A DNA stretch of 20,292 nt from a virus. Location of the stretch: the IMG/VR virus record IMGVR_UViG_3300000230_000044, positions 1 through 20,292 of that record; one strand, written 5' to 3'. The notes under the pieces were generated by a model that was not told the origin of the DNA, did no database searches, and saw nothing but the letters and a program-made list of their open reading frames with translations. Both the position numbers and the translations under genes were made by a program. Below, one piece after another: positions 2,387 to 18,823 of the stretch. Within the stretch, counting starts at the first letter, position 1; the number at the start of each line of letters is the position of its first letter.

Positions 2387-2887
2387 ATGAGACTAAACAA
2401 AGAGCAACGCGAAGCACTATTATCATGGGTAGCGGAAGGATTGAAAAGCGACGAAATCAATAAACGCGCTTCTCAGTTTTCGCCGCCCTTTAGTGTTTCG
2501 CGCGCGGCGGTCACAAAGGGGCGAAAGAAAAAGCAAATCGATCTCAAGACGTTGCAGACGATCAGCGATAATAGCGCCCTTACTACTGGCTACGCGCTCA
2601 AAGAATACCGGGTACAAAAACTCGCCCTACTGGCCGAACTTTTAGAGCGTGACATCCTGGGTGATAAGATTTGGCTTGCTCATAAAAAGGGTGTTGGCTC
2701 TGGTGACATTGCAGAAATCTTTGATTATCTCGAATTTAACAAAGGTGAGATTGACGCTTACCGGGGCGTATTGGATGACATTGCATCCGAGACGGGCGGG
2801 CGTATTAAGAACCTTGATGTAAAGAGCGCCGGTAAAGAGTTGCAAACGGTTATGTTTGTCGAGATTGTGAAGTCGAAAGATGAATAA
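2387..2887 (+). CDS. terS: Putative terminase small subunit
   Basis: The 166-residue protein lies directly upstream of the large terminase and overlaps it by 8 bp. This is the usual place for the small subunit, which binds phage DNA and presents it to the large subunit. Residues 4-50 look like a helix-turn-helix (EQREALLSWVAEGLKSDEI, then a turn and FSVSRAAVTKGRKKK). The central part is helical and charged, suitable for oligomer formation. No strong Shine-Dalgarno is seen upstream of ATG 2387. One exact copy of the 13-mer repeat lies within the gene at 2822-2834. The assignment rests on position and the N-terminal DNA-binding pattern; the sequence family itself is not recognised. Confidence 0.7.
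   Translation: MRLNKEQREALLSWVAEGLKSDEINKRASQFSPPFSVSRAAVTKGRKKKQIDLKTLQTISDNSALTTGYALKEYRVQKLALLAELLERDILGDKIWLAHKKGVGSGDIAEIFDYLEFNKGEIDAYRGVLDDIASETGGRIKNLDVKSAGKELQTVMFVEIVKSKDE
2822..2834 (+). repeat. Iterated 13-mer, copy 1
   Basis: This is an exact copy of AAGAGCGCCGGTA within the small terminase gene, read as codons for S-A-G. Confidence 0.85.
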
Positions 2888-4208
2888 TCTATTTGACATC
2901 AAAAACGAAAAAATGACGATCAACTTACACCCTGGCCAGACAAAAGCATGGGAGAGTAAGGCGCGTTTTACGTTTGTTATCGCCGGGACGCAGAGCGGTA
3001 AAACTAGCTTTGAGCCGTTCTGGTTACATCGTGAAATCAGAACATGCGGACCCGGTGATTATCTTGCGGTAACAGCGACTTATGGCCTATTCAAACTAAA
3101 GTTTCTGCCAGAAATGCAGGGCTATTTTGAACTGTTCGGATGGCAATATGCCGCGTCTGACCGCGTGATTTGGAAGAACGAAGGCCCGCAAAAGTATCGC
3201 ATAATCTTGCGCTCTGCCAATGCTCCCGGCGGTCTTGAAAGCGCAACAGTCAAAGCGGCTGTACTTGACGAATGCGGGCAAGATGAATTTAGCCTGCAAG
3301 CGTGGGAGGCCATACAGCGCCGGTTATCTCTATCGCGTGGTCGCGTGTTTGGTGGTACTACCCCGTATAACTTGGGGTGGCTGAAAACGCAGGTGTTTGA
3401 TAGGTGGCGTACTGGCGATCCTGATTACCGCGTTATTCAGTTCAAAAGCACGCAAAACCCCGCTTTCCCAATGGATGAATACGAGCGGGCAAAAGCTACG
3501 CTCCCAACGTGGAAGTTTGAGATGTTTTATAACGGTGAATTTAGCCGACCTGCAGGCCAGATTTACGAAGATTTTACCGAGTGGCACTCTTGCGATCCGT
3601 TCCCAATTCCGCAATCGTGGCCTCGGTTAATGGGTACTGACTTCGGCGCAATTCATACTGCTAAACTTATCGCCGTGATTGACCCGGCAACGGATATAAT
3701 CTATATTGTGGATGACCTGCTCGACGGTAACATGACCACATCGCAACACGTTGCAAGCGTCAAGCAAAACCGCTTTTACCGGCATGGGTTGGTTGCTTGG
3801 GGTGGCGCAGAATCCGAGAAACAACAGCGCTGGGATTGGAAAGCCGCCGGGCTTACAGTAAAAAAGCCGCCCATTTCAGACGTTGAAGCAGGCATTGACC
3901 GCGTTACCGAGGCGCTGAAAACTCGTAAGTTGAGAGTGTTCAATACCTGTGTCGGCCTGGTTGATGAGTTTGGTCGCTATGCGCGAGAGCTAAACGAAGT
4001 AGGCGAACCGACCGATAAGATCAAAGATAAAGAGACGTTCCATCGTTTGGATGCGGTGCGTTATCTGATAAGTGGCGCAACCAAAGCCGGTACGCTGAGA
4101 GCGTCCAAAGTTGACCTATACGCAAAAGTGCAAAGAGCGCCGGTAGGTGGTGCGGCGCGTGCTGATAGTGATATTGACGCCATGCTCGAGGAGAGTAATT
4201 ATGCCTAA
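2880..4208 (+). CDS. terL: Terminase large subunit (ATPase and nuclease)
   Basis: The 442-residue protein has the two domains of the packaging motor. In the ATPase domain the Walker A motif is GTQSGKTS (residues 36-43), Walker B is AAVLDE (126-131), and a GGTTP coupling motif lies at 158-162. In the C-terminal nuclease domain the acidic metal ligands are probably D254 (MGTDFGA), D278/D279 (YIVDD) and D391 (HRLDAVRY). It cuts concatemeric DNA and pumps it through the portal. The length fits the family. ATG 2880 overlaps the small-subunit stop; M12 is an alternative start, and neither has a strong Shine-Dalgarno. The stop overlaps the portal start by 8 bp. A 13-mer repeat copy lies at 4133-4145. 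Confidence 0.95.
   Translation: MNNLFDIKNEKMTINLHPGQTKAWESKARFTFVIAGTQSGKTSFEPFWLHREIRTCGPGDYLAVTATYGLFKLKFLPEMQGYFELFGWQYAASDRVIWKNEGPQKYRIILRSANAPGGLESATVKAAVLDECGQDEFSLQAWEAIQRRLSLSRGRVFGGTTPYNLGWLKTQVFDRWRTGDPDYRVIQFKSTQNPAFPMDEYERAKATLPTWKFEMFYNGEFSRPAGQIYEDFTEWHSCDPFPIPQSWPRLMGTDFGAIHTAKLIAVIDPATDIIYIVDDLLDGNMTTSQHVASVKQNRFYRHGLVAWGGAESEKQQRWDWKAAGLTVKKPPISDVEAGIDRVTEALKTRKLRVFNTCVGLVDEFGRYARELNEVGEPTDKIKDKETFHRLDAVRYLISGATKAGTLRASKVDLYAKVQRAPVGGAARADSDIDAMLEESNYA
4133..4145 (+). repeat. Iterated 13-mer, copy 2
   Basis: This is an exact copy of AAGAGCGCCGGTA near the 3' end of the large terminase gene. Here it is read in a different frame from copy 1 (R-A-P-V). Confidence 0.85.
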
Positions 4209-5460
4209 ATCTATTTTCGCAAGTACTGAATTTAAGCCGTACAAATCCCCCTGGGATGCACGGGTCAAAGAATTGGTAGCACGGGCATCGTATTATGATG
4301 GCTCTGTTTATACGCAACAACAGCAGAGCATTCTTTGGACAATGGGTCCGCGTATAGCCAAAGAAATCAAGCCGCTATTTCTGCCCCTTTCGCGCGCGGT
4401 TGATGTGGACGCGGGCGTCATACCGGCGGGTTGGTCATTTCCCCCAGAAGATCCAAAGTTCGAGGTGTGGAGCAAGGCGCGCGATGTGCTTTTTGATATG
4501 TCGGCGTGGGACACAAACGGCGTTTTGTTTGTCCACTACGGCGCCATGTATGGTGTTAGCGGTTTGCGCGTGGCTGATGTACGAGATAACAAGCAGGTAA
4601 TTATTCAGCCCATTCGCCCGATCAATTTTATGTTGGTATCATCCGCCCAATACAAGCAGGCCCCAGACATGGCGCTGTATGTCGAAATCCGCCAGGATAA
4701 TGCCGGTGATGAGTTTGAGTATGCCGAGGCCATCACAGATCAGTTTATCCGTACGTTCAAAAATGGCGAGCCGTTTGGCTACGATGATCGCGAGCCTGAG
4801 TACACAAATGAGCAAGGGGTTATCCCGATTATCGAATGCGTTCACATTGCAGACGGCACGGCGTTGGGAGAATGCACATTCCAAAAGTCAATCCCGATGC
4901 TGAACGAACTCAACGAAATGTCAAGCCGACTGTCTGAGGTTATCCGCAAAAACGCAGATCCGCAATTTGTGACCAGTGGCGCGGAACCGTCCGAGCTTCA
5001 GCGGGGATCTGATTACATGTGGTTTATTCCCGAAAACGCGGCGGTCAATGCGATTGTGCCAAAGGTTGATATTGCCGGCGTTCTTGAGTTCATTCGTGAA
5101 ATCAAAACAGGTGTAACAAGCAGCCTGCCCGAACTGTCATTTGACGACATCCGCAAGTCATCACAGATTGCCGCTGAGACTATCGAGTTACAACTTATTG
5201 ACCTGGTTATCAAGATCAAACGGACGCGCCCCAACTATGACCGGGCGCTGGTAATGGCTATGATGCTGGCAGGTGCAGCCGGTATTGAGATGGGCATCCC
5301 AGAACTGGCCGCACTGGCCGATACTGAGCTTATCCTTGACCCTGACCGGGCAATTATCCCGGCCTCACCTAAACAGCTTATCGAGCTTGAGATGATGCAA
5401 ATCGAGCTTAACAATATGCGGGCGGCTGGTAGCAATTTGGAAGGCGCTCTAAATGCCTGA
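4201..5460 (+). CDS. Portal protein
   Basis: The start at ATG 4201 is chosen because GAGGAG lies just upstream; the open frame to 4147 is inside the terminase gene. The product is 419 residues, within the range of portal proteins, which form the ring through which DNA enters the capsid and on which the tail is built. The central and C-terminal layout fits: beta-rich wing, the clip region, then a long stem helix (SFDDIRKSSQIAAETIELQL, about 305-325) and a helical, methionine- and alanine-rich crown near the C-terminus. The family is assigned by position between terminase and MuF and by this pattern. It overlaps the MuF gene by 8 bp. Confidence 0.85.
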   Translation: MPKSIFASTEFKPYKSPWDARVKELVARASYYDGSVYTQQQQSILWTMGPRIAKEIKPLFLPLSRAVDVDAGVIPAGWSFPPEDPKFEVWSKARDVLFDMSAWDTNGVLFVHYGAMYGVSGLRVADVRDNKQVIIQPIRPINFMLVSSAQYKQAPDMALYVEIRQDNAGDEFEYAEAITDQFIRTFKNGEPFGYDDREPEYTNEQGVIPIIECVHIADGTALGECTFQKSIPMLNELNEMSSRLSEVIRKNADPQFVTSGAEPSELQRGSDYMWFIPENAAVNAIVPKVDIAGVLEFIREIKTGVTSSLPELSFDDIRKSSQIAAETIELQLIDLVIKIKRTRPNYDRALVMAMMLAGAAGIEMGIPELAALADTELILDPDRAIIPASPKQLIELEMMQIELNNMRAAGSNLEGALNA

Positions 5461-6385
5461 TGTGGCAAACGCGCAAAAGTTTATTACTAAACTAACAGCG
5501 GTAGAAGCTGCCCATTTGCGGGCGGTTGAAGTTGCCAGGCGTGAGGCACGGCGCGGGATACTAGAGATTATCGACCGTGATGGTATCACCCGTCCCGGTG
5601 TGGCCGCCATGTTGCGCGAGGTGGATAATCTCAAGCGGGCTGTAGTGGCATCCGGGCGCGATACCGCAAAACTTGAGCGTATAACCGTACTCAATTATGC
5701 CCGTAAGCAAATCCAGACGGCGCAGCGCGTAGGGCTTGCGCGGGGAATTGATGTAAACGTTCTAGCCGGCCAAACCGCCGGTAATGCTTTAGACGGTGAG
5801 CAGGCTTATTTTACCTCCACCCCGGCATGGATCACGCAGCTCGAAAGCGCGATACAAACGACGGCAGCACGATTGCGGATAAGCAACGCCGCCCCAGATG
5901 AAGTCTCGGCCCTGCTTATCTCTGAGAGCGCAAACGCTGGTAGGCAATCAGCCTGGGCAAGCGCCGGTACAAAGGCGGGTTTGGAAGAGCAGCGCGGCGT
6001 TTGGACGTATGGCGTTGGACTTGTCGGGGCTTATCTTATGGCGCTGAACAAGGCCGATACAGAAACTACTTATTCTCGCCAATGGGTGAGTACACTGGAC
6101 GAAAGAACTACGGACTGTTGTTTACAAGCACATGGGCAGATTGTCGGTATGGATGAAAACTTTATCCTAAGAGGAACCCCAAGATTTGCTGACGAAATAT
6201 ATACAAGTCCAGCGCATTGGTATTGTAGAAGTAGCGTAGTTTTGTATAACGAAGAGTTTGAAAAGATTGGAATAACCACAGATGAAATGAAAAACGCCGC
6301 CAAAGCTGAATTAAACGCACGTGCTGAAACAAAAAAGAGAGTGCCAATTTACCCAAGTCATGCAACGTCTCGGCGTGGTAGGTGA
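5453..6385 (+). CDS. Minor head / head morphogenesis protein, MuF (SPP1 gp7-like)
   Basis: The protein is 310 residues and starts at ATG 5453, overlapping the portal stop. The MuF signature is clear: RQWVSTLDERTTDCCLQAHG (209-228), then PAHWYCRSS (253-261), with C222, C223, H227, H255 and C258 as probable metal or fold residues. The end (YPSHATSRR) is typical of the family. MuF proteins enter the head with the portal and may influence DNA ejection. Codon use changes abruptly around residue 203 (near 6060). Among 18 arginines before that point there are two AGG and no AGA, whereas of 10 after it five are AGA and one is AGG, and the DNA becomes AT-rich. This suggests that the 3' third came from another source. 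Confidence 0.9.
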   Translation: MPDVANAQKFITKLTAVEAAHLRAVEVARREARRGILEIIDRDGITRPGVAAMLREVDNLKRAVVASGRDTAKLERITVLNYARKQIQTAQRVGLARGIDVNVLAGQTAGNALDGEQAYFTSTPAWITQLESAIQTTAARLRISNAAPDEVSALLISESANAGRQSAWASAGTKAGLEEQRGVWTYGVGLVGAYLMALNKADTETTYSRQWVSTLDERTTDCCLQAHGQIVGMDENFILRGTPRFADEIYTSPAHWYCRSSVVLYNEEFEKIGITTDEMKNAAKAELNARAETKKRVPIYPSHATSRRGR

Positions 6386-6400
6386 TATAATAGTTTCAAT

Positions 6401-6676
6401 CCCTCAGTTGGAATAGGGGTAATTCTAGGAAATTGTCGGCTATTCATAAGGGAAAACCAATACCAACTTTAGTAGGACGTAAACATACCAAAGAGCATTG
6501 TGAGAAAATATCAAACGCTAATAAAGGACGAAAGCATACTCAGGAAGCAAAAGAAAAGATGTCAGCAGTTATGAAAAGGTAATAAAAACGCACTAGGAGC
6601 AGTACGATCACCAGAGACTAGAGCTAAAATGTCAGAAGCACAAAAGAAAAGACATTTACAAAAAATTCAACAGTAA
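6401..6676 (+). pseudogene. Remnant of a homing endonuclease (NUMOD3 repeats), frameshifted
   Basis: Directly after the MuF gene, codon-like sequence encodes repeated NUMOD3-type DNA-binding motifs. First come SWNRGNSRKLSAIHKGK, GRKHTKEHCEKIS and NKGRKHTQEAKEKMS in one frame, ending at TAA 6580-6582. Then GNKNALG and SPETRAKMSEAQKKR follow in another frame, ending at TAA 6674-6676. Dropping one A from the AAAA run at 6574-6577 joins the two frames without a break (K-G-N-K-N). NUMOD3 is a C-terminal DNA-contact module of HNH and GIY-YIG homing endonucleases. The catalytic N-terminal domain is absent here, and a stop lies just upstream (TAG near 6390). The remnant is AT-rich like the neighbouring part of MuF. 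No start codon or ribosome-binding site was found. Confidence 0.8.
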
Positions 6677-6686
6677 ATAATAAAGC

Positions 6687-6715
6687 AGAGCGCCCTTTAT
6701 ACCGGCGCTCTTTTT
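6687..6715 (+). terminator. Rho-independent terminator after the packaging/portal operon
   Basis: AGAGCGCC (6687-6694) pairs perfectly with GGCGCTCT (6704-6711), with a 9-nt loop and TTTTTATTA following. It should end transcripts from the terminase-portal-MuF block. The right arm carries a full copy of the iterated 13-mer in reverse orientation. Confidence 0.85.
6700..6712 (-). repeat. Iterated 13-mer, copy 3 (in terminator arm)
   Basis: TACCGGCGCTCTT on the plus strand is the exact reverse complement of AAGAGCGCCGGTA. It forms the right arm of the terminator. Confidence 0.85.
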
Positions 6716-6743
6716 ATTACTCTAACAGAGACTAACAGATGTC

Positions 6744-6769
6744 TCCCAGATGAAATAAATCATCTGGGA
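6744..6769. repeat. Perfect 10-bp inverted repeat
   Basis: TCCCAGATGA (6744-6753) and TCATCTGGGA (6760-6769) are exact inverted repeats around AATAAA. No T-run follows, so a protein-binding site or cruciform is likelier than a terminator. Confidence 0.8.
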
Positions 6770-6780
6770 TAGATAAATTT

Positions 6781-6848
6781 CGTGTAGTTCAATAGTAAAT
6801 AACATAAAAACAGCACTCTCTTAATACTATATACTCTCCCAGATATAA
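6781..6848. repeat. Noncoding direct-repeat module, copy A
   Basis: CGTGTAGTTCAATAGT is followed by CTCTCTTAATA and then CTCTCCCA. The same ordered elements recur exactly 150 bp downstream at 6931, with divergent spacers between them. No coding signal is seen. Confidence 0.65.
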
Positions 6849-6930
6849 CAGATAATATTGATTAACATTTACGTTATTTTGTAGGACTTTAAGCAATATA
6901 GTGTTATTTGTGGGAGAGCTGGGAGAGTTG

Positions 6931-6997
6931 CGTATAGTTCAATAGTCGTTTACGCTCTCTTAATGGCGCTTTTTTGCTCTCCCATCATCTGGTAGAG
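6931..6997. repeat. Noncoding direct-repeat module, copy B
   Basis: CGTATAGTTCAATAGT, then GCTCTCTTAATGG, then CTCTCCCA follow in the same order as in copy A. The first element differs from copy A at one base in 16. Confidence 0.65.
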
Positions 6998-7035
6998 TTG
7001 TTGTCTATGATTACAAAAACGTGATTTATGATTGC

Positions 7036-7048
7036 AAGAGCGCCGGTA
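7036..7048 (+). repeat. Iterated 13-mer, copy 4 (noncoding)
   Basis: This is an exact copy of AAGAGCGCCGGTA in the intergenic region upstream of the hairpin at 7057, outside any gene. Confidence 0.85.
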
Positions 7049-7056
7049 AGGGGAGG

Positions 7057-7085
7057 AAGCTCCCTATTCGGGGAGTTTAATTATT
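7057..7085 (+). terminator. Terminator-like hairpin between convergent transcription units
   Basis: AAGCTCCC (7057-7064) pairs with GGGAGTTT (7071-7078), with one G-U pair and a 6-nt loop. AATTATTTTA follows on the plus strand. It sits just past the stop of the minus-strand gene at 7086, so it could separate the converging transcripts. The T-tract is imperfect. Confidence 0.5.
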
Positions 7086-7391
7086 TTACTTATTCTTTGG
7101 CCGCCCACCCTTGCGTCCGTTTTCGGCGCTGGTCTTAGATTTGCGCTCCGATTTTATAGAGCCGAGAGCGGTGGCGGCTTTGGCTGTGGCGTCTGCGATA
7201 ACTGCGCCGTCTTTATAAATTGACCAGTGACCATCGTCCGACATGACCGGGTAAAAATTGCATTGGCAATTACTCATGCCGCAGAGCGTCTTTTCGAGTT
7301 TTGTTTGCTGCGCTTCGGTCAGGGGTTGCCCGTCGGTTACGTCGAGCGTTACGCGGGCATTGTGGTAGGGGTGTTCAAAGGTCTTTTTCAT
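7086..7391 (-). CDS. Hypothetical protein with basic GGRP tail, last gene of the minus-strand cassette
   Basis: The 101-residue protein starts at ATG 7391-7389 with AGGAGATCG just upstream, the same leader sequence as before ATG 219. The N-terminal part (HPYHNARVTLDV) looks beta-rich. Residues about 37-44 (CGMSNCQC) hold three cysteines that could bind metal. The C-terminus (SAENGRKGGRPKNK) is a basic AT-hook-like tail common in small phage DNA-associated proteins. I do not recognise the family. The plus-strand frames over it (7227-7561) lack start signals and are shadows. It is probably expressed from the promoter at 7749-7777. Confidence 0.65.
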   Translation of the reverse strand: MKKTFEHPYHNARVTLDVTDGQPLTEAQQTKLEKTLCGMSNCQCNFYPVMSDDGHWSIYKDGAVIADATAKAATALGSIKSERKSKTSAENGRKGGRPKNK

Positions 7392-7405
7392 TTCGATCTC
7401 CTTTT

Positions 7406-7510
7406 TTACTTGCTCATGGTGTTGTTGATTTTGCGGACGGATGCTTCGTATTTCTCGGCCTGGGCCTGGGCCCAGATTTGTGCTTCGGTTATCTGGTCTT
7501 CGTTGCGCAT
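7406..7510 (-). CDS. Very small protein of 34 residues, middle gene of the minus cassette
   Basis: The frame runs from ATG 7510-7508 to TAA 7408-7406 and encodes MRNEDQITEAQIWAQAQAEK followed by a short basic end. It is an alanine/glutamine-rich single-helix protein. It overlaps the end of the upstream gene (7489-7728) by 22 bp and ends 14 bp before the next start, so it fills the gap in the operon exactly. The Shine-Dalgarno is weak, and translation may be coupled to the upstream gene. No family is recognised. Confidence 0.6.
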   Translation of the reverse strand: MRNEDQITEAQIWAQAQAEKYEASVRKINNTMSK

Positions 7511-7728
7511 ATTTTGATCATTTCGGCGACGGTGGCGGGCATCGGGGTGACAAGTTTCTGACCGTTGATAAAAAACTGTATTCCTTCGGGGCGGATGCTT
7601 GCGCCGGTGCTGATTTCTTTGCCGTCGATGCTCATGCTGCTGATTTCGATCAACCGAGTGCCAACCCTGCGAGTGATTTCGATTTCGATTGTCTTGCCGC
7701 TTTTGGTAGTCCAGTTAGTTTTTGTCAT
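7489..7728 (-). CDS. Hypothetical beta-rich small protein, first gene of the minus cassette
   Basis: The 79-residue protein starts at ATG 7728-7726 with AGGAG about 9 bases upstream. It begins MTKTNWTTKSGKTIEIEI, has a strand-rich middle (IDGKEISTGASIRPEGIQFFINGQK) and a short helical end. It resembles small phage proteins with paired strands, but I cannot assign a family. It is the promoter-proximal gene of a three-gene unit oriented against the surrounding virion genes, a moron-like arrangement. Its strong promoter (7749-7777) and an overlapping dyad suggest regulated expression separate from the late genes. Confidence 0.65.
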   Translation of the reverse strand: MTKTNWTTKSGKTIEIEITRRVGTRLIEISSMSIDGKEISTGASIRPEGIQFFINGQKLVTPMPATVAEMIKICATKTR

Positions 7729-7748
7729 CTCATATCTCCTATGTATTT

Positions 7749-7777
7749 AGTATGTATCCTATCGCTAGGTTTGTCAA
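7749..7777 (-). promoter_or_regulatory. Sigma70-type promoter for the moron-like cassette
   Basis: On the minus strand a perfect TTGACA (7777-7772) is followed by 17 bp and CATACT (7754-7749). AGGAG and ATG 7728 lie just downstream, giving a short leader. This is the best -35 box in the window. Confidence 0.75.
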
Positions 7778-7790
7778 TGGATTATAGGAT
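7756..7790. promoter_or_regulatory. Operator-like dyad overlapping the cassette promoter
   Basis: ATCCTAT (7756-7762) and ATAGGAT (7784-7790) are exact inverted repeats flanking the -35 box. A second small dyad, CCTA-TCGC-TAGG (7758-7769), lies in the spacer. The arrangement fits a repressor site; no cognate protein is proven. Confidence 0.5.
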
Positions 7791-7946
7791 TTTGATACAA
7801 AGATACAATATGCAAAAACGGCGTTTTGATTGCGCGGATTATCTCTAAAAAGATTATGCCTGCATGACCACAGGAAGGGCTACAGCGCACGCATTTTAGC
7901 AATGGGTAATCTGATAAGGGTATAACTCTGAAATCGCCGCATTTTA

Positions 7947-8004
7947 TACCCCCATATATGGCTTATATTATGTAACTAACTAACCAATACCCATATATAG
8001 GGCT
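7947..8004. promoter_or_regulatory. Pair of related palindromic sites in the divergent intergenic region
   Basis: CCATATATGG (7952-7961) is a perfect palindrome and CCCATATATAGGG (7990-8002) a near-perfect one. Both sit in the shared context ATACCC...GGCT, with centres about 40 bp apart. TAACTAACTAACC lies between them. They look like two binding sites for one dimeric protein on the same face of the helix. The rest of 7791-8090 shows no gene. Confidence 0.5.
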
Positions 8005-8090
8005 AAAAATAACTAAAAAACGCTATTTTTGCCGGGAGGATTGCGCACGAACTTTTCAGCACAGCCCTTCTGTGTGGCTTGTGGCGGGTA

Positions 8091-9104: not shown

Positions 9105-10001
9105 ATGGCAAACATTACTGCCGCACTCGTAGCCGATAGTACCCCTACTATCATCGCAGCCGAAGCGCTGCAATACCTCCAGAGTAATACCGTTCTGGCC
9201 CGTCTCGTCAACCGGGATTATGAGAACGAAGTTGCCGAATTTGGTAACGTTGTGAAAATTCCCTATGGTGGAGCGTTGACTGTCAACGACAAAACCGCTG
9301 ATACCGTCATCACCCTGAATGCCCCGGACGATGCCGCGTACACCTTGACGCTGAACAAGCACAAGGAAGTCAGTTTCGTGATCGAGGACATCGCCAAAGC
9401 CTTTGCCCGCCCGGATTGGTTCCAGGTGTATGCCGCGGATGCGATGGCGAAAATGGCCGAAAAGATCGACGATGACATCGCCGCGCTGTACGCTGGCTTT
9501 TCGCAGTCGATCAACGCCGTTGCCGGTCTGAGCGAAGGAACCTTCCGCGAAGCCCGCCGCCTGCTGAACGCGGCCAAAGCCCCCCTGACCAATCGTAATT
9601 TCGTGCTGCATGAAGATGCGGATTATGAATTTCTTGGTATCGAGAAAGTCATCAACGCCGAGTACGCTGCCGCGTTGGGTGGCAAGGCCGCCGACAGTCT
9701 CGTTGGGCGCTTTATGGGATTTGATGTGTTCATGGATCAGCAAATCGCCGTGGCCGGTGGTCAGTGTAAAAATATGGCTTTCCAGCGCAATGCGATTGTG
9801 ATGGCTAACCGCCCGCTGCCCGTTGCCCCCGCCGGTATGGGCGTTATACAGCGCGTTTTGAACGAAGACGGTATCGCCGTCCGCGTTACCATGAGCTACG
9901 ATCACAACTACCTCGGCGCGAAGTTCACCCTCGATACCCTGTACGGTGTCGCCGAAATGCGTGACTCGCACGGTATCGCCGTCTCGACTGACGAAATCTG
10001 A
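9105..10001 (+). CDS. Major capsid protein, P22 coat-like
   Basis: The 298-residue protein starts at ATG 9105 after AAGGA. Its sequence pattern matches P22-type coat proteins of the HK97 fold. There is an N-terminal arm (PTIIAAEALQYLQSNTVLA), a strand-rich part (FGNVVKIPYGG), a long spine helix around residues 100-135 (QVYAADAMAKMAEKIDDDIA), and a core with NRNFVLHEDADYEFL (165-179). The C-terminus (GVAEMRDSHGIAV) is also typical. It assembles around the scaffold into the icosahedral shell. Codon use here is GC-leaning and uniform, as expected for a highly expressed gene. It is flanked by hairpins on both sides (9068-9100 and 10015-10040). Confidence 0.92.
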   Translation: MANITAALVADSTPTIIAAEALQYLQSNTVLARLVNRDYENEVAEFGNVVKIPYGGALTVNDKTADTVITLNAPDDAAYTLTLNKHKEVSFVIEDIAKAFARPDWFQVYAADAMAKMAEKIDDDIAALYAGFSQSINAVAGLSEGTFREARRLLNAAKAPLTNRNFVLHEDADYEFLGIEKVINAEYAAALGGKAADSLVGRFMGFDVFMDQQIAVAGGQCKNMAFQRNAIVMANRPLPVAPAGMGVIQRVLNEDGIAVRVTMSYDHNYLGAKFTLDTLYGVAEMRDSHGIAVSTDEI

Positions 10002-10055: not shown

Positions 10056-10448
10056 ATGGCTCTCTTCGATAACGCCGAAAGCAAAAGCATCAAAATCAAA
10101 CCCGTTTTTATGGTGGCTGCCGAAGCCGCAAATGTGAAAACCGTATCAATCCAGTTGATTGATCGTGAAAACGGCAATGAAATCAGCGAACGTGTTACCT
10201 TGCTTTGGTATCTGTCTGCAGATGCTAATGGAGATGCAATCGGCACAGCCCCGAGCGGTGGAACTGCCGCCGGTACTGATGGCTTGCTGATTGAATGGAC
10301 TGCAAACCTCGCCGGTATCGTTACGTCTGAGGCTGATGGTGATATTGATATCGCCATGACAGAAGCGGGCGCGCTGACGAATTATCTTATCTTGGTAATG
10401 CCAGACGGCAAGCTGTACGCCTCCCCGGCCATTACTCACGCTTCATAA
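10056..10448 (+). CDS. Capsid-associated beta-rich protein, possible decoration protein
   Basis: The 130-residue protein starts at ATG 10056 after GGAG. It is rich in predicted strands, with the pattern of an Ig-like or jelly-roll domain: VKTVSIQLIDRENGNEI, an ADANGDAIGTAPSGGTA loop, LLIEWTANLAGIV, ADGDIDIAMTEAG and a closing LVMPDGKLYASPAI. Similar proteins occur directly after the coat gene in other tailed phages and are usually left as structural proteins of unknown function. The position suggests that it decorates the shell. No catalytic motif is visible. Confidence 0.6.
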   Translation: MALFDNAESKSIKIKPVFMVAAEAANVKTVSIQLIDRENGNEISERVTLLWYLSADANGDAIGTAPSGGTAAGTDGLLIEWTANLAGIVTSEADGDIDIAMTEAGALTNYLILVMPDGKLYASPAITHAS

Positions 10449-10762: not shown

Positions 10763-11587
10763 ATGCCCGCCGGTCGATCACTGTTTATCAATCACGACTT
10801 CGCACATAACCTAAACGGTTGGACTTCGACCGGCGGCGCGGTTTATCTTGTATCCGATGGAGATGAGCATTACGGCATGGCGAATTTGCCGGTAGGTGGG
10901 GCAATCTCTCAGGCTTTCGCGGTCATCCATAGCCGCGCCTATAGCTTACACATAAGTGCAAAATCCCCTACCGGCGCTCTTGTTGGGGCGCAGGCGACAG
11001 TATCGATCACGGACGGCGCAGGTTTGCCCGTTGTCACAAATAACCTCGTTGCAACTACCGCAACGTGGACTGAGACGATTTACACAATTGGCCTTGTCCC
11101 TGGTACAACCTATAACGTTAAGATCGAAAACGAGAGCGCCCCCGGCGATTTGCGGATTGATGACGCCTGGCTCTGGTTTGTCCCTGTCACCCGTGCGCAA
11201 ATTGCAACAGCAGTAAATACAAAACTTGGACGTATCGCAACTGAGCGCGGCTTGAACACTACCCCAAACGGGGCGTTGACCGAAGGCTCCTATACCTACG
11301 CCATTGACGCAGCTCTCCGCAATGCGGGGGCGATTGATCCTGATACCGGCAATCCTGATGTGCGTTGGCTTGACCCGTTGACCGTCCAAACCGCGATTGA
11401 TGCGACCCGGCGCGAGATGCTCGAGCAGTTGCAGAGCGATTACGCGGTTGAAGTTGATACACGCACAGGCCCGTATCAACAGAGCCTAAGCCAAAAACGC
11501 GCTGCAATTACCGAGATGTTAGGTGGCGGTAGTGGCGACGGCTCCCCGACTGGCGGCGTAGTAGTTCGTAGGATGACGCATGATTGA
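10763..11587 (+). CDS. Head-tail adaptor-like protein with an N-terminal carbohydrate-binding-like domain
   Basis: The 274-residue protein appears to have two parts. Residues about 6-141 look like a jelly-roll of the CBM4/CBM22 type: FINHDFAHNLNGWTSTGG at the start, alternating strands, and LRIDDAWLWF at the end, as in galactose-binding-like folds. Residues 143-274 are mostly helical. Near the C-terminus VDTRTGPYQQSLSQKRAAI resembles the end of gp15-type connector proteins, which sit below the portal. Gene order supports the adaptor role: the next gene is closure-like. The sugar-binding fold is a pattern-based inference. The stop overlaps the next start by 8 bp. A 13-mer repeat copy lies at 10969-10981. 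Confidence 0.6.
   Translation: MPAGRSLFINHDFAHNLNGWTSTGGAVYLVSDGDEHYGMANLPVGGAISQAFAVIHSRAYSLHISAKSPTGALVGAQATVSITDGAGLPVVTNNLVATTATWTETIYTIGLVPGTTYNVKIENESAPGDLRIDDAWLWFVPVTRAQIATAVNTKLGRIATERGLNTTPNGALTEGSYTYAIDAALRNAGAIDPDTGNPDVRWLDPLTVQTAIDATRREMLEQLQSDYAVEVDTRTGPYQQSLSQKRAAITEMLGGGSGDGSPTGGVVVRRMTHD
10969..10981 (-). repeat. Iterated 13-mer, copy 5
   Basis: TACCGGCGCTCTT on the plus strand is the exact reverse complement of AAGAGCGCCGGTA, inside the adaptor-like gene. Confidence 0.85.
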
Positions 11588-11906
11588 TTACAGCTTTGCG
11601 GCTATGACCACCGTCACGGCGTCAACCGAGCGCGCATCTCTTACCGGCTTTGTTGCAAATCTTTCGGGGCTGAAAATAACCCCACTTGCGCCGGTAGATG
11701 CTGAGACTAAACAACGGCTCGAAATCAATACCCCGCATGTGACTTGGGAAACCTGCCTGCAGGATGCGCCGGATATACGCAAGGGCGATAAGCTGGTAAT
11801 CGGCGCGGTGAAGTATCCTATTTACCATGTCGAGAAATGGCATTGGCTCCCGTCCGCTGATACCCGCTTGCGCATCATCGTTGAGGATCTCCGCAATGGC
11901 GTATAA
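11580..11906 (+). CDS. Head closure (head-tail connector) protein, gp16-like
   Basis: The 108-residue protein starts at ATG 11580 within the end of the adaptor gene. Size, position and fold pattern fit SPP1 gp16-type closure proteins, small beta-barrels that seal the portal after packaging. The second half has the typical '[DE]IRKGDKLVIGAVKYPIYHV' run followed by a strand with HWLPSADTRLRIIVE. The next gene starts before its end (11 bp overlap), so the connector genes are translated in a chain. The assignment is mainly from order and length. Confidence 0.6.
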   Translation: MIDYSFAAMTTVTASTERASLTGFVANLSGLKITPLAPVDAETKQRLEINTPHVTWETCLQDAPDIRKGDKLVIGAVKYPIYHVEKWHWLPSADTRLRIIVEDLRNGV

Positions 11907-12315
11907 ACCAGAGTTGTCAATCCAGGGTATCCAAAAAGCGCAGGAGCGGAATAATCGCCGTATCGCCGCTGTCAGGCCCGAAGGTGCAGCCGGTCAAGCC
12001 GTCAAGGATGCGATTATCAGTCTGCACAGGTACGCGACCCAGATTACGCACGTGGGCAAGTATACCGGCGGTGGTGCGCTCAAATCGTCTCATCGGATGG
12101 ACATAGACGAACTGCAAGGGACAGTGAGTATCGACCCTAAAAGTGTCTCGCCTCGCAGGACGAAAACGAAAAATAAGCCGGTAATCTATGGTATTTACGA
12201 AAACGCGCACGGTGGTGAACATGCCTTTTATGACCGGACTATATCCGAAATAGGCGAGCAAGTAGTCGAGCGCGCAAAAGATACAATCAGGAACGCGGTG
12301 TTATATGCCAAGTAG
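11896..12315 (+). CDS. Neck / tail completion protein, HK97 gp10-like
   Basis: The start at ATG 11896 (139 residues) follows GAGGAT; the open frame back to 11827 lies in the closure gene. The protein begins MAYKPELSIQGIQKAQERN and has the helix-then-strand layout of HK97 gp10-like proteins: a helical start, a long helix (AAGQAVKDAIISLHRYATQI), basic loops with KSSHRM, a YENAHGGEHAFYDRTI segment and a final helix (VVERAKDTIRNAV). In this family the 'G...A.F...T' segment near the end is characteristic. It would join head to tail during assembly. It ends with TAG and overlaps the next gene by 11 bp. Confidence 0.65.
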   Translation: MAYKPELSIQGIQKAQERNNRRIAAVRPEGAAGQAVKDAIISLHRYATQITHVGKYTGGGALKSSHRMDIDELQGTVSIDPKSVSPRRTKTKNKPVIYGIYENAHGGEHAFYDRTISEIGEQVVERAKDTIRNAVLYAK

Positions 12316-12766: not shown

Positions 12767-13135
12767 ATGGCACGTTTGACACTTGTAAAAACCGCCGCTC
12801 CTGGCAATTTCCCGGCAATCCAACCTACAGCCAATTCGTTGGACGTGGCGATGGTTGTCACCGTCTTGGTGAATAAAGCCCAATTTTCTGCCAGTGGCAA
12901 AGATTTGGTATTTGCCCACAATACCGGCGCTGGTGCTGGCACCGTGACGATCAACTCTGTTGCAGATCCAAAAAACAACCGTACCGGCGACATTACCGCG
13001 TACAGTATCGGCGCGGGTGAGTATGCCGTTTTCGGCCCGTTCTCACGTGAGGGTTGGGTACAGACCGACGGCAACGTCTACCTCGAAGCATCCACCACAG
13101 ACGTTAAGTTTGGCGTTGTTTCCCTGCCCCAATAA
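12767..13135 (+). CDS. Beta-rich phage structural protein of unknown role
   Basis: The 122-residue protein starts at ATG 12767 after AAAGAGG. It is strand-rich and has blocks that recur, to my memory, in small proteins near tail-tube genes of other phages: DLVFAHNTGAGAGTVTI, YSIGAGEYAVFGPF and VYLEASTTDVKFGV. The single-domain beta-sandwich look suggests a virion surface or neck decoration protein. No enzyme motif is present. It sits between the terminator and tube genes, where siphoviruses normally have no essential gene, so an accessory role is possible. Confidence 0.6.
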   Translation: MARLTLVKTAAPGNFPAIQPTANSLDVAMVVTVLVNKAQFSASGKDLVFAHNTGAGAGTVTINSVADPKNNRTGDITAYSIGAGEYAVFGPFSREGWVQTDGNVYLEASTTDVKFGVVSLPQ

Positions 13136-13147
13136 GGAACCTGAAAA

Positions 13148-13543
13148 ATGGCAAAGTTTGACGGAAAAAACATGGCTTTCAAGTTCGGCGGCTTCACCTT
13201 CCCCGCCGGAACGCTGGTATCTGTTGACTGGCCGCGTACTCGTGATGAACTCGAAGCGACCGGTGCAAACCAGCTTGATAAAGAATTTTACCCGAGCGAG
13301 CGTTCTTCGACCATCACAGTCAATGCCTGGGATGATGTTGCTGGCACCATTCGCGCCGCGATGGAAGTAACGACCGCCGAAGCGACCGCCGAGTTTTGGC
13401 CGCAGGGCGCAACCGCTGGCAAGCCGAAGCGCAACGCTCAGGCCTTTGTCACATCCGTGAGCGATCCGATCACGCATAACCAGATGACCGCAATCACCAT
13501 CTCGTTGCGTGTTAATGGCGCAGTCACCCCGACCACCGTATAA
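13148..13543 (+). CDS. Major tail (tube) protein
   Basis: The 131-residue protein starts at ATG 13148. It has the all-beta layout of small tail-tube proteins: N-terminal MAKFDGKNMAFKFGGFTF, a loop with REDELEATGA-like text (here DELEATGAN), strands with SSTITVNAWDD, AEATAEFWPQGA and NAQAFVTSVSD, and a final strand (TAITISLRVNGAV). Location before the frameshifted chaperone and the tape measure makes the identity convincing. It polymerises around the tape measure. No sheath gene accompanies it, so the tail should be non-contractile. Codon use is uniform and GC-leaning, as in the coat gene. Confidence 0.75.
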   Translation: MAKFDGKNMAFKFGGFTFPAGTLVSVDWPRTRDELEATGANQLDKEFYPSERSSTITVNAWDDVAGTIRAAMEVTTAEATAEFWPQGATAGKPKRNAQAFVTSVSDPITHNQMTAITISLRVNGAVTPTTV

Positions 13544-13546
13544 CCT

Positions 13547-13972
13547 ATGATTTACACACTGGGAAAACAGGCGTTTGAGATTATTGACGAACCGCTGCAA
13601 GAGCACGTGGAAGCGTGGGAACGCGCCGCCCGCGCCTTGCGGTCGGAAGATGCCAAGCCATACTTACGCGCAACGATGGAGCAGCTAAAGACGATTAACG
13701 TAACGGCGCAATCCTTACCGGCGCTCTTGGTCATCTTTGCCGAAGCCGCGAAAAACATCACCGCCGCTGTTGAAGTGCTCGAAGCAAACGAAACGCTTAC
13801 CATGTCAAGCAATCGCGGGATGATGGTCAAGGCCGCAATCACGGCGGGCTGGATAAAAGCGCCGGTAATGGTTGCGGGCGACGTTGACAAAATGAAACCG
13901 GGGCTCGTGGCGTGGTTGGCTGAGAAGGTCGGCGTGATCTATTTGGAAGCGGTCGAAATCCCAAAAAACTAA
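13547..13972 (+). CDS. Tail assembly chaperone, short (gpG-like) form
   Basis: The 141-residue protein is helical, starts at ATG 13547 and ends with IPKN-TAA at 13970-13972. Its role, by analogy with lambda gpG, is to coat the tape measure and help tube subunits assemble. The last codons hold a slippery sequence, and the following gene is in the -1 frame with no ATG. A minority of ribosomes should therefore make a longer gpG-T-like fusion of about 234 residues. The order tube, chaperone, extension, tape measure is the standard one. A 13-mer repeat copy lies at 13716-13728. Confidence 0.85.
   Translation: MIYTLGKQAFEIIDEPLQEHVEAWERAARALRSEDAKPYLRATMEQLKTINVTAQSLPALLVIFAEAAKNITAAVEVLEANETLTMSSNRGMMVKAAITAGWIKAPVMVAGDVDKMKPGLVAWLAEKVGVIYLEAVEIPKN
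13716..13728 (-). repeat. Iterated 13-mer, copy 6
   Basis: TACCGGCGCTCTT on the plus strand is the exact reverse complement of AAGAGCGCCGGTA, inside the tail chaperone gene. Confidence 0.85.
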
Positions 13973-14024
13973 TATTGGCGACGGCGGATTATGCAGAAGA
14001 TAGTGACGAAAATCCGCCGCCGCC
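13960..14024 (+). promoter_or_regulatory. Programmed -1 ribosomal frameshift signal
   Basis: CCCAAAAAAC (13960-13969) in the zero frame reads C-CCA-AAA-AAC, so both C CCA AAA and A AAA AAC slippery heptamers are present, directly before the stop TAA. Seven bases after the second heptamer a stem begins: GGCG (13977-13980) and CGGCGGATT (13982-13990) pair with CGCC (14021-14024) and AATCCGCCG (14011-14019). That is 13 pairs around one A/C mismatch, with a 20-nt loop. Confidence 0.9.
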
Positions 14025-14250
14025 AGAATTAGCAGAAGCGTTTCAAGCTGAGATTTGGGGCGCATCCGCTTTATATCCTGGCACAATCCCGGTTCGAAAG
14101 CTCAGAAGGTGGGGCGCTTGCCTGAATATCTATCGTGCTGTAAAATCATATCAGGCAGGCTCTACCCGATTTGCACAGTGGGCAGAGCGCAACCCCGGCC
14201 AGTTTGAGATCGTAGCCAAAATTCGTGAAATGAGGTGTCTTGCATGGTAG
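13969..14250 (+). CDS. Frameshift extension of the tail assembly chaperone (gpT-like part)
   Basis: This -1 frame adds 93 codons to the 141-residue chaperone. It has no ATG, and the only start within it is a TTG at 13975 without a Shine-Dalgarno, so it is best read as the extension made by frameshifting. After LILATADYAEDSDE it is acidic and proline-rich (ENPPPPELAEAF). A short helical domain with PVRKLRRWGACLNIYRAV and WAERNPGQFEIVAKIREM follows. In lambda the T part recruits tube protein. It ends with TAG, and the tape measure start (14244) overlaps it by 7 bp. Confidence 0.85.
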   Translation, partial: LILATADYAEDSDENPPPPELAEAFQAEIWGASALYPGTIPVRKLRRWGACLNIYRAVKSYQAGSTRFAQWAERNPGQFEIVAKIREMRCLAW

Positions 14251-15893
14251 ATGAAATCCTAATCCGTTTTAGCGTAAAAGACGACGGGACGCCTGTAATT
14301 GAGAAGGTTAATAAATCCCTCGGCGAGACTACAAAGCAATCTAAGGCGCTTGCACCAGGTCTTGAAAATGCCCGTGAGAAAATGACGGGCTTTTTGTCTA
14401 CAAACGCCGCTCTTATTGGTGTGCTTGTCGGCGTGGGGCTTGCGCTCAAAGATGTAATTGAGACGGGTATTGAATACGCTATGACCGTTGATAATATGGT
14501 ACGCGCCGGGGGAGAGAGCGCCGAAGAGACAAGCCGATTTATACAGGTGCTTGACGATTACGAAATCAGCGCCGAAGAAGCCCTCGCAGCTACTCGCGCT
14601 CTTACAAAAAACGGCTTGGCCCCCAACATTGACACTCTTGCAAAACTTAGCGATCAATACCGCTCTCTCAACTCAGCCGAAGAGAAAAACGCTTTTATCA
14701 TTGAGAACTTGGGGCGTGGTGGTTTGCAGTGGGCAAAGGCACTTGACCAGGGCAGCGTGGCATTACGAGCGCAAGCCGCCGCCGTCAGTCAAAGTCTAAT
14801 TCTGTCACAAGATCAGATTGATAGTGCAGAACAGGCGCGCCTGGCGATTGACGAGTGGAATGATAGCATCGAAGGGTTGAAGGTTACTCTTTCGATGGGA
14901 TTGTTACCCATTTTCGCTGCTGTGGTTACAAGCATAAACAACAATATCAAAGCCGGTTTTGAGTGGAAAGACCTACTCCGGGCAATTGCGCCGGTAGGTC
15001 TGGTAATGCTCATAAATGACATCAAGGAAGCGTACGCCCAGAACACAGAAGCAATGGAAGATGCAACGTTTGCATCCGTTACCCTGGCCGATACTCAGGC
15101 GCAGCTCGAAGAAAAAGAGAAAGCCGCCGCCGAAGCCGCAAAGGCATTATCGGAAGTACTCTCCGGGCGCATTGGGTTGATAAATAGCATTCAGTCAGCC
15201 GAAGAAAGCTACACCGAAAAGTCACAGAGTTTGAACGATCAGCGCATCCAGGCCGAGCAGGATTTAGCCAAGTTTCGCGCTCAAGGTTATTGGGAACAGA
15301 GTGAACAGATCCAGGGTTCGCTAAAAAAGTTAGATGAAATCAAGCAGGCTGAAGCCGATCTCGCCAAAGAGCGCGAGAAACAAACGTTACAGTTTATCTC
15401 AGACATACTCGCTCAAAACCTTGCCCGCGATGGTTGGACAGAGAACGAGTTTGCCGCGTTTGCCGATCAGCAAGTGGCCTGGGGTTTGTGGTCTGAAGAT
15501 GTTGTAGCAAAGGCCAAAGCCGCGTGGAGTGAAGCCGACAAAATCACGCAGTCAATCAACGCGATCCCAACTCAGAGAAATATCAATTTCATTTTCTCGA
15601 CATCTGGCGTTGATCCGCAAACCTTACCGGGTGGCTATGCGTACCAGTACGCAAATCAATCAACCCCCCACGCGGGCGGCGGTTCGTTTACAATCCCGTT
15701 TGGTGGTGGTAACGAGAGTTTTATGATGCCCGGCGGGAATACTGCGAGTGGTGGCGAGACTGTCACGATCACACAGGCCAACCGGGAAAGCCGCACAGAT
15801 GCACTCTTGCAGGAGCTAATCAATAAGAAGATGGTTGACGAAAATCGTCTCGCGCGCGCCTTCCTCACTGGTTTGCAATCGGTAGGCCAATAA
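14244..15893 (+). CDS. Tail tape measure protein
   Basis: The start at ATG 14244 is chosen over GTG 14235 for the GAGGTG spacing. The 549-residue protein is the longest gene of the helical tail set. It begins MVDEILIRFSVKDDGTPVIE and has a hydrophobic segment at about 52-68 (STNAALIGVLVGVGLALK) plus others around 215-260. A long coiled coil with repeated A/E/K heptads lies between roughly 275 and 395, then a glycine-rich region and a short helical tail. By the usual 0.15 nm per residue rule the tail would be about 80 nm. No lysozyme or peptidase motif is obvious. It overlaps the chaperone extension and the tail-tip gene (1 bp). Confidence 0.85.
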   Translation: MVDEILIRFSVKDDGTPVIEKVNKSLGETTKQSKALAPGLENAREKMTGFLSTNAALIGVLVGVGLALKDVIETGIEYAMTVDNMVRAGGESAEETSRFIQVLDDYEISAEEALAATRALTKNGLAPNIDTLAKLSDQYRSLNSAEEKNAFIIENLGRGGLQWAKALDQGSVALRAQAAAVSQSLILSQDQIDSAEQARLAIDEWNDSIEGLKVTLSMGLLPIFAAVVTSINNNIKAGFEWKDLLRAIAPVGLVMLINDIKEAYAQNTEAMEDATFASVTLADTQAQLEEKEKAAAEAAKALSEVLSGRIGLINSIQSAEESYTEKSQSLNDQRIQAEQDLAKFRAQGYWEQSEQIQGSLKKLDEIKQAEADLAKEREKQTLQFISDILAQNLARDGWTENEFAAFADQQVAWGLWSEDVVAKAKAAWSEADKITQSINAIPTQRNINFIFSTSGVDPQTLPGGYAYQYANQSTPHAGGGSFTIPFGGGNESFMMPGGNTASGGETVTITQANRESRTDALLQELINKKMVDENRLARAFLTGLQSVGQ

Positions 15894-18823
15894 TGACACA
15901 TGTAACCGACTTGGTTTATGCGGTTTGGGCGTATCTCAATAGCGTTTGGACCGACATAACAGCCGACGTTATTACCGGCTCTGTTGCTGGGCGTGATGGG
16001 TTTGCAACAAATTCGCCGGTAGACAGGGTGGCCGATGTTGGCGAGTTTTCGTTTACGCTCAAAAACTTTACAGGCAAGTACAGCCCCGGCCATGCCTCCG
16101 CGTTATCGGGTTGGCATGTTGGTATCCCGGTCAAGATTGTGTTTACCTACAAGACGCAAAACTACCCGATATTTGGGCGCATCGCTACGCCGGGCGGGAT
16201 TGAGATTGATCCGCGTCAAAAGGGAATGCCAACGGTAAGCGTAACCTGCTTGGATTGGTTTGATTTTGCCAGTAAACACCCGATTGTAAACCCTGGCATT
16301 TTGACCGACAAAACAGCGGACGAGGTAATAACTCAAACGCTCTTATACACGCCGATAGCACCGCAGGCCGTATCCCTTGATACCGGCGTTTTTACATTTC
16401 CAACAGTTTTTGATACCGTGACCAGTAAGACTAAAGCCTATTCAGAATTAGCAAAATCCGCACTCGCTGAGATGGGCTATGTCTACATGCGCCATGACAC
16501 AACTTACGGCGGAACGTTAGTACTCGAAAATCATCACCGGCGCAACGGCTTGCGGGCTGAAACAACCTTTGATGAATTTATCGAAGATGCCGGTATTGAA
16601 CTCCGCGAGGATGGCGGGTATGAATTGCGCGAGGATGGCGGGTATGAACTCTGTGAAAATTGGGAAACTGGAACATTTGATGGTGACAATACCTTTATCT
16701 CTGCTGACATTTCTCACGGTGATAATTTACTAAATCGCCTGGGGAATTTCGCCTATCCGCGCAGCGTTGACACAAGCCCACAGATTTTATTTAGCCTCGC
16801 GCAGCCGATCCAAGTACCGGGCGGCGGCTCTATCACGATAAAAGGGTATTACGCAGATCCCAACGGCGGTGCGCCAATCAACGCGCAGAACATGATCGAC
16901 CCTGTTGCTACTACGGATTATTTGGCGGCTGTCAACCAAGACGGGACGGGAACAAACTACACGGCTAATATAAGCGTTGTTGCGAGCTACGGTACTGAAG
17001 GTTTTACTCATGTAGTATCAAATTCTGGTACTTCGGCCTGGCTGTATCAGTTCAATTGCCGGGGTTATGGGATTTATACTTATAATCCTATTGAGCATAC
17101 TGAAAGTGCATTACAATCAATACAGGATAACGGCGTCAACGGAAAAACTCTGCACCAGAAATATCAGAAAACTTTGATGGTGGCCGAACTGGCCTCGAGC
17201 GCAATTGTAGAGTTTGACCGTGAACCCGAAACGCGCATAGATCGTATATACGCAATAGCTAATCAATCCCCAAATATGATGGGCGCATTTCTCAACCTCG
17301 GAACTGGAGATTTGATTAGACTAAAATCAACTCTTGCGGCTATTGATGGCTATCACTATATTTGTGGCCGTGAGTGGAAAATTGAGAAAGGCAGACTTAT
17401 CATGTTTAGTTGGACAACAAAGGCAATGCTATCCTTACGGCTTGGTTTATCAATGCTGGGCATGGAAGTTAGCGAAAATTTCAAGGCAGTAACCTATCAT
17501 CACGACCCCGCGCTTATACCGATGAAACAATACAGCATGAGCGTATGGTTGAATTACAAATCATCCCCATCTACTGGATATTTTCATTTTTTCGGGTTGG
17601 AATGGCATCCTATTGTTGCAACCCGATATAGTTGGGCAATTGGCATTCAGGAGCAAAAGATTTTTTACAGACGCTCTTATACCGATGGAATAATGGGAGG
17701 TGATTTAGATGTTGGCGAATGGCAACATGCTACGCCCGTGTCGGCTAATGATTGGCATCAGGTTGTTATTACGCATGATGGTAGCGTAAATGAGCGAACA
17801 AAGCCTAAAATGTATATTGACGGTGCAGAAGTTGCCATACCAGATGCAATAATAGACCCTGACGCTTTATACTTTTCGGCGATGGATGGCGGACTTGGTA
17901 TGCAGGTCGGTTTTTCACAAATGACCCCTACGGTCTATCTAAATATGCAAGTCGTCAACCCGCGCATCTATAATCGCATCTTAAGCGCGGCAAATGTGAG
18001 CGAGTTATACGCAGCCGGTAAGGACGATACCACCACTCAGACTACCGGCGTTGTTTTCTGGCCGCTGAACACTAAAACAAAATGGCTGAACTGGACAGAC
18101 TTGTATAACTCGGATATGAAGCCGGTAGATAACATTTACGGTTATGCCGGTAATCCATCTGGGACGCCTATTTATTTTCATCCGTTTGACGGGGCGCGAA
18201 ATACCGTGACCGTTGACGCCTCATCTGTTGCCACAACTGCCAACGGTACTACCTCCACTTTTGCGCACACAATAAGCGCCGGTAATGACCGGATGCTTAT
18301 TGTCGCAATCTCAAAGCGTGCTTTCAACAATGCGACTTCTGTCACCTATGGCGGCGAAAGCCTGAGACGGTATTACAAAAACCGTTACGACAACAATAAC
18401 TATCCGCAGTTCGAGTTATGGTACTTACCGGCTCCTCCGGTTGGTACTGCCAATGTAGTTGTAACCATCCCGGCTAACGATTGGTTTGAAGTCAACGCAA
18501 TCTCATTCTTTGGCGCGGATCAGATTTACCCATTCCGAAATTTTGACCAGACAACCGGGACAGGAACGGGACCGGCGCTAACAATCGATAGCGTATCAAC
18601 CGATATTGTTTTCGACATCCTAGCAATCGAAAAAGGCAGCGACACAACGTGTATACCAACCGCCGGTCAGACGCAACGGATGAACGCTTCGGCAGATAGC
18701 AACTGGGCAGGCTTAACCAGCACAAAGCCGGGAGCCGCGTCAGTTTCTACCGGCTGGACTATTTCAGCATCCGGTAAAAACTGGATTTATGCAAGTGTAT
18801 CAATTCAAGGGAGCATCCCATAA
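15893..18823 (+). CDS. Large tail-tip protein with LamG-like and C-terminal adhesin-like domains
   Basis: The 976-residue protein starts at ATG 15893 (TAATG overlap). Residues 1-about 230 look like a distal-tail or baseplate-hub module: DITADVITGSVAGRDGFAT, then LSGWHVGIPVKIVF and PTVSVTCLDWFDFASKH. About 236-256 hold a tandem ELREDGGY repeat. About 544-704 form a LamG/concanavalin-like lectin domain (YSMSVWLNYKS, WHQVVITHDGS, KMYIDGAEV, PRIYNRILSAANVSEL). About 770-976 are a strand-rich adhesin-type domain (AGNDRMLIVAISKR, ATSVTYGGESL, GTANVVVTIPA). The inferred role is tip assembly plus host-surface binding. Domain order is mosaic; exact borders are estimates. Confidence 0.75.
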   Translation: MTHVTDLVYAVWAYLNSVWTDITADVITGSVAGRDGFATNSPVDRVADVGEFSFTLKNFTGKYSPGHASALSGWHVGIPVKIVFTYKTQNYPIFGRIATPGGIEIDPRQKGMPTVSVTCLDWFDFASKHPIVNPGILTDKTADEVITQTLLYTPIAPQAVSLDTGVFTFPTVFDTVTSKTKAYSELAKSALAEMGYVYMRHDTTYGGTLVLENHHRRNGLRAETTFDEFIEDAGIELREDGGYELREDGGYELCENWETGTFDGDNTFISADISHGDNLLNRLGNFAYPRSVDTSPQILFSLAQPIQVPGGGSITIKGYYADPNGGAPINAQNMIDPVATTDYLAAVNQDGTGTNYTANISVVASYGTEGFTHVVSNSGTSAWLYQFNCRGYGIYTYNPIEHTESALQSIQDNGVNGKTLHQKYQKTLMVAELASSAIVEFDREPETRIDRIYAIANQSPNMMGAFLNLGTGDLIRLKSTLAAIDGYHYICGREWKIEKGRLIMFSWTTKAMLSLRLGLSMLGMEVSENFKAVTYHHDPALIPMKQYSMSVWLNYKSSPSTGYFHFFGLEWHPIVATRYSWAIGIQEQKIFYRRSYTDGIMGGDLDVGEWQHATPVSANDWHQVVITHDGSVNERTKPKMYIDGAEVAIPDAIIDPDALYFSAMDGGLGMQVGFSQMTPTVYLNMQVVNPRIYNRILSAANVSELYAAGKDDTTTQTTGVVFWPLNTKTKWLNWTDLYNSDMKPVDNIYGYAGNPSGTPIYFHPFDGARNTVTVDASSVATTANGTTSTFAHTISAGNDRMLIVAISKRAFNNATSVTYGGESLRRYYKNRYDNNNYPQFELWYLPAPPVGTANVVVTIPANDWFEVNAISFFGADQIYPFRNFDQTTGTGTGPALTIDSVSTDIVFDILAIEKGSDTTCIPTAGQTQRMNASADSNWAGLTSTKPGAASVSTGWTISASGKNWIYASVSIQGSIP
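16597..16656 (+). repeat. Tandem 24-bp repeat within the tail-tip gene
   Basis: Two nearly identical 24-bp units (16597-16620 and 16621-16644) encode ELREDGGY twice. A degenerate third copy (ELCENW) follows. Acidic 'LREDG' repeats are common in phage tail proteins. It could vary in copy number by slippage. Confidence 0.8.

Follow-up and report, generated by a model that had tools for sequence, protein, structure and literature searches.

The analysed stretch of DNA, hereafter the window, is the 20,292-bp IMG/VR record IMGVR_UViG_3300000230_000044, which carries terminase, portal, head morphogenesis, scaffold, major capsid and tail genes of a virus of Chloroflexota bacteria. Its capsid relatives sit in Chloroflexota genomes, at 61% identity in AL-N1, followed by Anaerolineae and Kouleothrix. 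The heptamer GCCGGTA has 41 copies in the window (23 forward, 18 reverse), close to the roughly 40 copies counted by hand in an earlier sequence-only reading. A third-order Markov background, as that reading had proposed, predicts 8.5 copies, with 2.5 at order 1 and 13.3 at order 4; the order-5 expectation of 33 is circular and has no test value, as its background holds the word itself. At order 3, the 9-mer GCGCCGGTA is found 12 times against 1.1 expected and the 13-mer AAGAGCGCCGGTA 6 times against 0.005, and the top 7-mer score of the window (-log10 p of 15.0) compares with at most 4.9 in 60 order-3 shuffles. Markov background was therefore rejected as the source of the word.

Exact copies of the 13-mer lie forward at 2822..2834, 4133..4145 and 7036..7048 and reverse at 6700..6712, 10969..10981 and 13716..13728, all as previously located, and the copy at 7036 is indeed noncoding. 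The copy at 6700 forms part of the 3' arm of a terminator-like hairpin, as had been claimed, with arms that read AGAGCGCC (6687-6694) and GGCGCTCT (6704-6711) in the sequence and are followed by a T run. The 9-mer recurs at the six further places already reported, forward at 5961..5969, 11688..11696, 13859..13867, 14988..14996 and 18276..18284 and reverse at 12922..12930. Other forward copies of the core are at 2028..2034, 2064..2070, 4086..4092, 5278..5284, 5777..5783, 9831..9837, 10269..10275, 10311..10317, 10888..10894, 12177..12183, 16015..16021, 16589..16595, 18014..18020, 18121..18127 and 18146..18152. Reverse copies are at 957..963, 3777..3783, 4421..4427, 11344..11350, 11642..11648, 12063..12069, 12982..12988, 15973..15979, 16381..16387, 18043..18049, 18426..18432, 18748..18754, 18921..18927 and, where no CDS is called, 20172..20178.

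Codon choice is excluded as the cause of this excess, because 1,000 synonymous shuffles that preserve both the proteins and their codon usage gave 3.4 ± 1.7 sense and 1.8 ± 1.3 antisense copies against 22 and 16 observed, counts that none of them reached (0/1000 in each case). The earlier dismissal of codon bias thus holds, and codon bias was rejected as a source of the word.

Extent and placement of the word in the joined phage

A second record, IMGVR_UViG_3300000234_000020, overlaps the window at 99.99% identity. The extended contig alone holds 77 GCCGGTA in 28.5 kb, with 6 copies of the reversed word as control, and joining the two gives a phage of 32,861 bp with 84 GCCGGTA (48/36) and 13 copies of the 13-mer. 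The word therefore persists over the full 32.9 kb when the rest of the contig is inspected, with about one copy every 400 bases, on either strand and both within and between genes. Local tandem repeats were rejected as its source, and 84 scattered copies argue against the packaging signal that had been offered as one option.

Alignment of the flanks, another step proposed earlier, yielded the extended consensus [CA]AAnAg[CA]GCCGGTA followed by a weak preference for G. The core itself is nearly all-or-none, because cores with one mismatch are barely enriched (132 against 106 expected). Nine of the 84 sites are noncoding, where 12% would be expected, and the coding sites are split into 38 sense and 37 antisense copies, which bears out the claim of both orientations and gene-blind placement. 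No relation of the sites to gene starts or ends was seen across the joined phage, and their spacing is about random. GCCGGTA is thus a real, orientation-free, gene-agnostic and phage-wide iterated word.

The nearest sibling, L034, has a major capsid protein 88% identical to that of the window phage and writes the word in a different form, CAAAAGAGCCGG[TG]A, with 14 copies of AAAAGAGC (2.0 expected) and 11 of AGCCGGGA (1.2 expected); its contig stops short of the right arm discussed below, so its genes there are unseen. Aligned sites of the two phages differ mostly by substitutions. Of the positions compared in this sibling, following the suggested search for conserved ones, the sites at 957, 11642, 13859 and 14988 are kept; that at 13716 differs, reading CAAGAGCGCCGGTA in the window and CAAAAGAGCCGGGA at the homologous site. 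In four further capsid relatives with 76-79% identity (L035-L038), the motif is not enriched, and a 14-mer scan of IMG/VR returned only chance matches beyond the window phage itself and L034. Among other capsid relatives, the words of L018 and, in part, of L063 proved to be local repeats that lie in clusters. Dispersed words were also found in L065 (CTCGAG) and L055 (GCCGGCA), neither of which has the module described next, and these may be something else than a module word. As a side observation, CTCGAG reaches 68 copies (20 expected) over 35.6 kb in L065, which with record G009 (L258, L259) stands for a capsid relative of high GC content that has no recombination module.

A replication/recombination module and the sister words

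Just outside the window, the right arm of the phage carries a replication/recombination module of which all seven genes are present, encoding a 253-aa protein, an ERCC4 nuclease, RecT, a J-domain protein, VWA, Prim-Pol and VapE. The RecT-like protein has a PHROG match with an E value of 6e-7. The 253-aa protein belongs to no known family, and a Foldseek search with its AlphaFold model (mean pLDDT 84) gave nothing significant, the weak MCM-type matches having E values above 0.02. The same arm also holds a pentapeptide-repeat-like protein (L105:20576-21313, reverse) that arises from a 15-bp tandem repeat with CTCCGCTCAG inside the unit.

This module is common to phages with another iterated word, TACTSAGTA or GCTCAGTA. 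ATACTSAG is present in 7-41 copies in 8/8 module-carrying records, among them every record found via RecT homology, and in 0-3 copies in 12 capsid or terminase relatives; a prophage of genome G017 and record G1051, both found by capsid and not by module, carry word and module as well. Individual module genes are common to 6-9 of nine word-bearing phages and to none of the word-less relatives compared, and the structural genes of these phages differ; by a more sensitive profile search, four word-less relatives show an isolated homologue of Prim-Pol or RecT. Presence of an iterated word thus tracks the module across phages with differing structural genes.

A search by the ERCC4 family, not selected on words, gave 59 loci, nine of them the window phage or known records and a few near-duplicates. 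An over-represented dispersed word is found in 37 of the 59, mostly of the TACTSAGTA or GCTCAGTA type, by a criterion chosen after the data were seen, which asked for no fewer than 8 copies and for 4 times the count of the reversed control and also admitted five loci with other words. A module does not by itself ensure a word, because 22 loci have none by this criterion, some of them fragments or GC-rich; many loci are fragmentary, so that a missing module gene or word there means little. No single gene is exclusive to the word-bearing phages in this set, VapE being the best (p=4e-4). Of 589 pooled TACTSAG sites, 57 are noncoding, against 56.9 expected. In record G1056 (L286, L287), 38 words lie outside and none within a 13.7-kb structural block (8.5-22.2 kb), which looks like a recently swapped segment.

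Could the word serve the Prim-Pol as priming sites for lagging-strand synthesis? Sites on both strands at a spacing of 0.4-1.4 kb, an association with a replication module and the detection of Prim-Pol in 26 of the 37 word-bearing ERCC4 loci would fit such a role. We nevertheless hold it to be very unlikely, as homologues of Prim-Pol and VapE are both missing from the word-bearing records G1052 and G1056 and we know of no published primase that requires a site this long. Their lack in these two records instead points to the recombination operon (253-aa protein, ERCC4 nuclease, RecT and J-domain protein).

The right arm further contains an N6/N4 methyltransferase that extends over two neighbouring open frames (L105:16110-16821, reverse), with catalytic and cofactor motifs apart, possibly owing to a frameshift or a split gene, as well as a second gene resembling a DNA methyltransferase. 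The word could accordingly have arisen as a side effect of repair guided by methylation, or of biased mutation near a methyltransferase site, in the manner of the repair model put forward for HIP1 (PMC4390886). Since GCCGGTA is asymmetric, near-miss words show the slight enrichment given above and none of the other word-bearing phages checked by motif scan has an intact methyltransferase, this origin strikes us as highly improbable.

The type of word follows the phylogeny of the module, with 18 changes on the ERCC4 tree against 31.5 ± 2.0 for shuffled labels and 16 on the tree of the 253-aa protein against 29.7 ± 1.9. The ERCC4 tree places the window phage beside L365, L366 and L368; its 253-aa protein is 59%, 45% and 58% identical to theirs, respectively, and 16-33% identical to those elsewhere. 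The word of L365 is GCC[AG]GTAG, with 29 GCC[AG]GTA sites in 10.5 kb, that of L368 is AAGAGCGCC, and L366 has no clear word of the GCCGGTA type. Because this group nests among TACTSAG phages on the module tree, GCCGGTA is probably a derived dialect of the clade of the window phage; the two words differ, and their family link rests on the shared module and its tree, not on a host genome. Among the other words of the ERCC4 set, L372, a distant module phage, has GACCTTGTAT, which is repeated as ACCTTGTAT at 21 dispersed places in 20.6 kb (0.2 expected). L118, from a Levilinea MAG, was noted along the way for GGGACAAC, whose more than 40 copies within 12.8 kb probably form a repeat array.

Dispersed, phage-specific sites whose motif drifts with the phage lineage are reminiscent of the stoperators of cluster A mycobacteriophages, which number 20-30 per genome and are oriented with transcription (PMC6550527). 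The word might likewise consist of sites for a phage repressor or a nucleoid or partition protein that would silence or organise the prophage, and the palindromic TACTSAGTA would suit a dimeric protein. Unlike stoperators, GCCGGTA is unoriented (38/37), gene-agnostic without enrichment between genes or near gene starts, and present 84 times per 33 kb, and no DNA-binding repressor family is common to the word-bearing phages compared. We thus regard stoperator-like sites as an unlikely explanation.

Host genomes and the putative reader of the word

The sequence-only reading had also considered a host-wide word adopted by the phage. Some 1,040 genomes, almost all of them Chloroflexota, were searched, including partly overlapping sets of 396 Anaerolineae, 400 Chloroflexota and 330 Anaerolineales genomes. 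GCCGGTA reached background counts only, with no host-wide iteration in any of them, and the search did not bring up the host of the window phage. No iterated word was seen in the host-genome stretches of six relatives either. For the sister word, prophages can be compared directly with their hosts. All 21 copies of TACTSAGTA in the 3.1-Mb Anaerolineaceae genome G017 fall within the prophage at C18:597,883-626,979 (loci L264-L266, L117), and none elsewhere; these copies read as the palindrome RTACTSAGTAY (n=21), the 9-bp core of which is absent from the remaining genome. Of the 32 RTACTSAGT in G854, 22 fall within a 34-kb prophage region that surrounds the ERCC4 gene, and the word is at background level elsewhere. 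Two more ERCC4-positive genomes (G780 and G845) have RTACTSAGT at background only. In two hosts, TACTSAGTA is thus concentrated in the phage and at background or absent in the host chromosome.

These results bear on the option that the phage mirrors a DNA-uptake signal or the Chi of an unsampled Chloroflexota host. Such mirroring is possible in principle, because Haemophilus phage HP1 carries the uptake word of its host 17 times against 0.6 expected in our yardstick count. GCCGGTA also resembles the uptake sequences of Pasteurellaceae (USS) and Neisseria (DUS) in its hard core and soft flanks, its occurrence on both strands and within genes, its copy in a terminator arm and its dialects. It differs from them in having no host-wide occurrence in the genomes searched and in its link to a phage module. 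As the presence of the word follows this module and TACTSAGTA is prophage-concentrated in two host genomes, we see little likelihood in a host-wide word, an option left unsupported by the genome searches. The uptake signal as proposed earlier retains the precedent of HP1 but leaves the link to the phage replication module unexplained. A HIP-type repeat finds no support: HIP1 is palindromic and chromosome-wide in cyanobacteria (PMC4390886), and the likeness to it ends at iteration in and outside genes, given that GCCGGTA is asymmetric, no host-wide word was seen in the genomes searched and even the palindromic sister word TACTSAGTA is not host-wide.

The word is probably a signal for the virus's own DNA machinery rather than for that of its host. 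On balance, we favor the view that GCCGGTA is a recognition word, dispersed over the phage, which the replication/recombination module of this phage would read with a Chi-like effect. A recombination signal was the best-fitting option on the earlier list. The putative reader would be a protein of the module, the members most regularly present being the ERCC4 nuclease and the 253-aa protein. By a Chi-like action, which we infer as the simplest mechanism, the word would mark the phage's own DNA, and recombination or resection would be started or limited by it at many places on both strands; sites may spread by point substitution and, in step with changes of the reader, diverge into dialects. Like Chi, read by RecBCD or AddAB, the word is short, over-represented in phage DNA and tied to recombination genes. 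Unlike Chi, a host word rich in recombinase-less phages, the sister word abounds in phages that carry RecT and is not host-wide. In lambdoid phages, Chi is missing from those that bring their own recombinase and RecBCD inhibitors and rich in those without a recombinase (PMC3784561), and we count this reverse of the module-word pattern against the Chi-like reading.

More tentatively, and with less confidence than for GCCGGTA itself, a widespread phage family may possess its own Chi-like self-recognition, in which the module would read a phage-specific, non-host word iterated over the entire phage genome, and reader and word would evolve together into dialects (TACTSAGTA, GCTCAGTA, GCCAGTAG and GCCGGTA). 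Our literature search found no published description of these words, and the iterated words known so far are host words (Chi, uptake signals and HIP) or repressor sites. If true, phages would bear self-marking or recombination-signal systems of their own, based on a module word that is gene-blind and shifts between dialects, which would help to explain which phage genomes can recombine together. The word could then be used as a fingerprint for such phages and their mosaics, as illustrated by the word-free 13.7-kb block of G1056.
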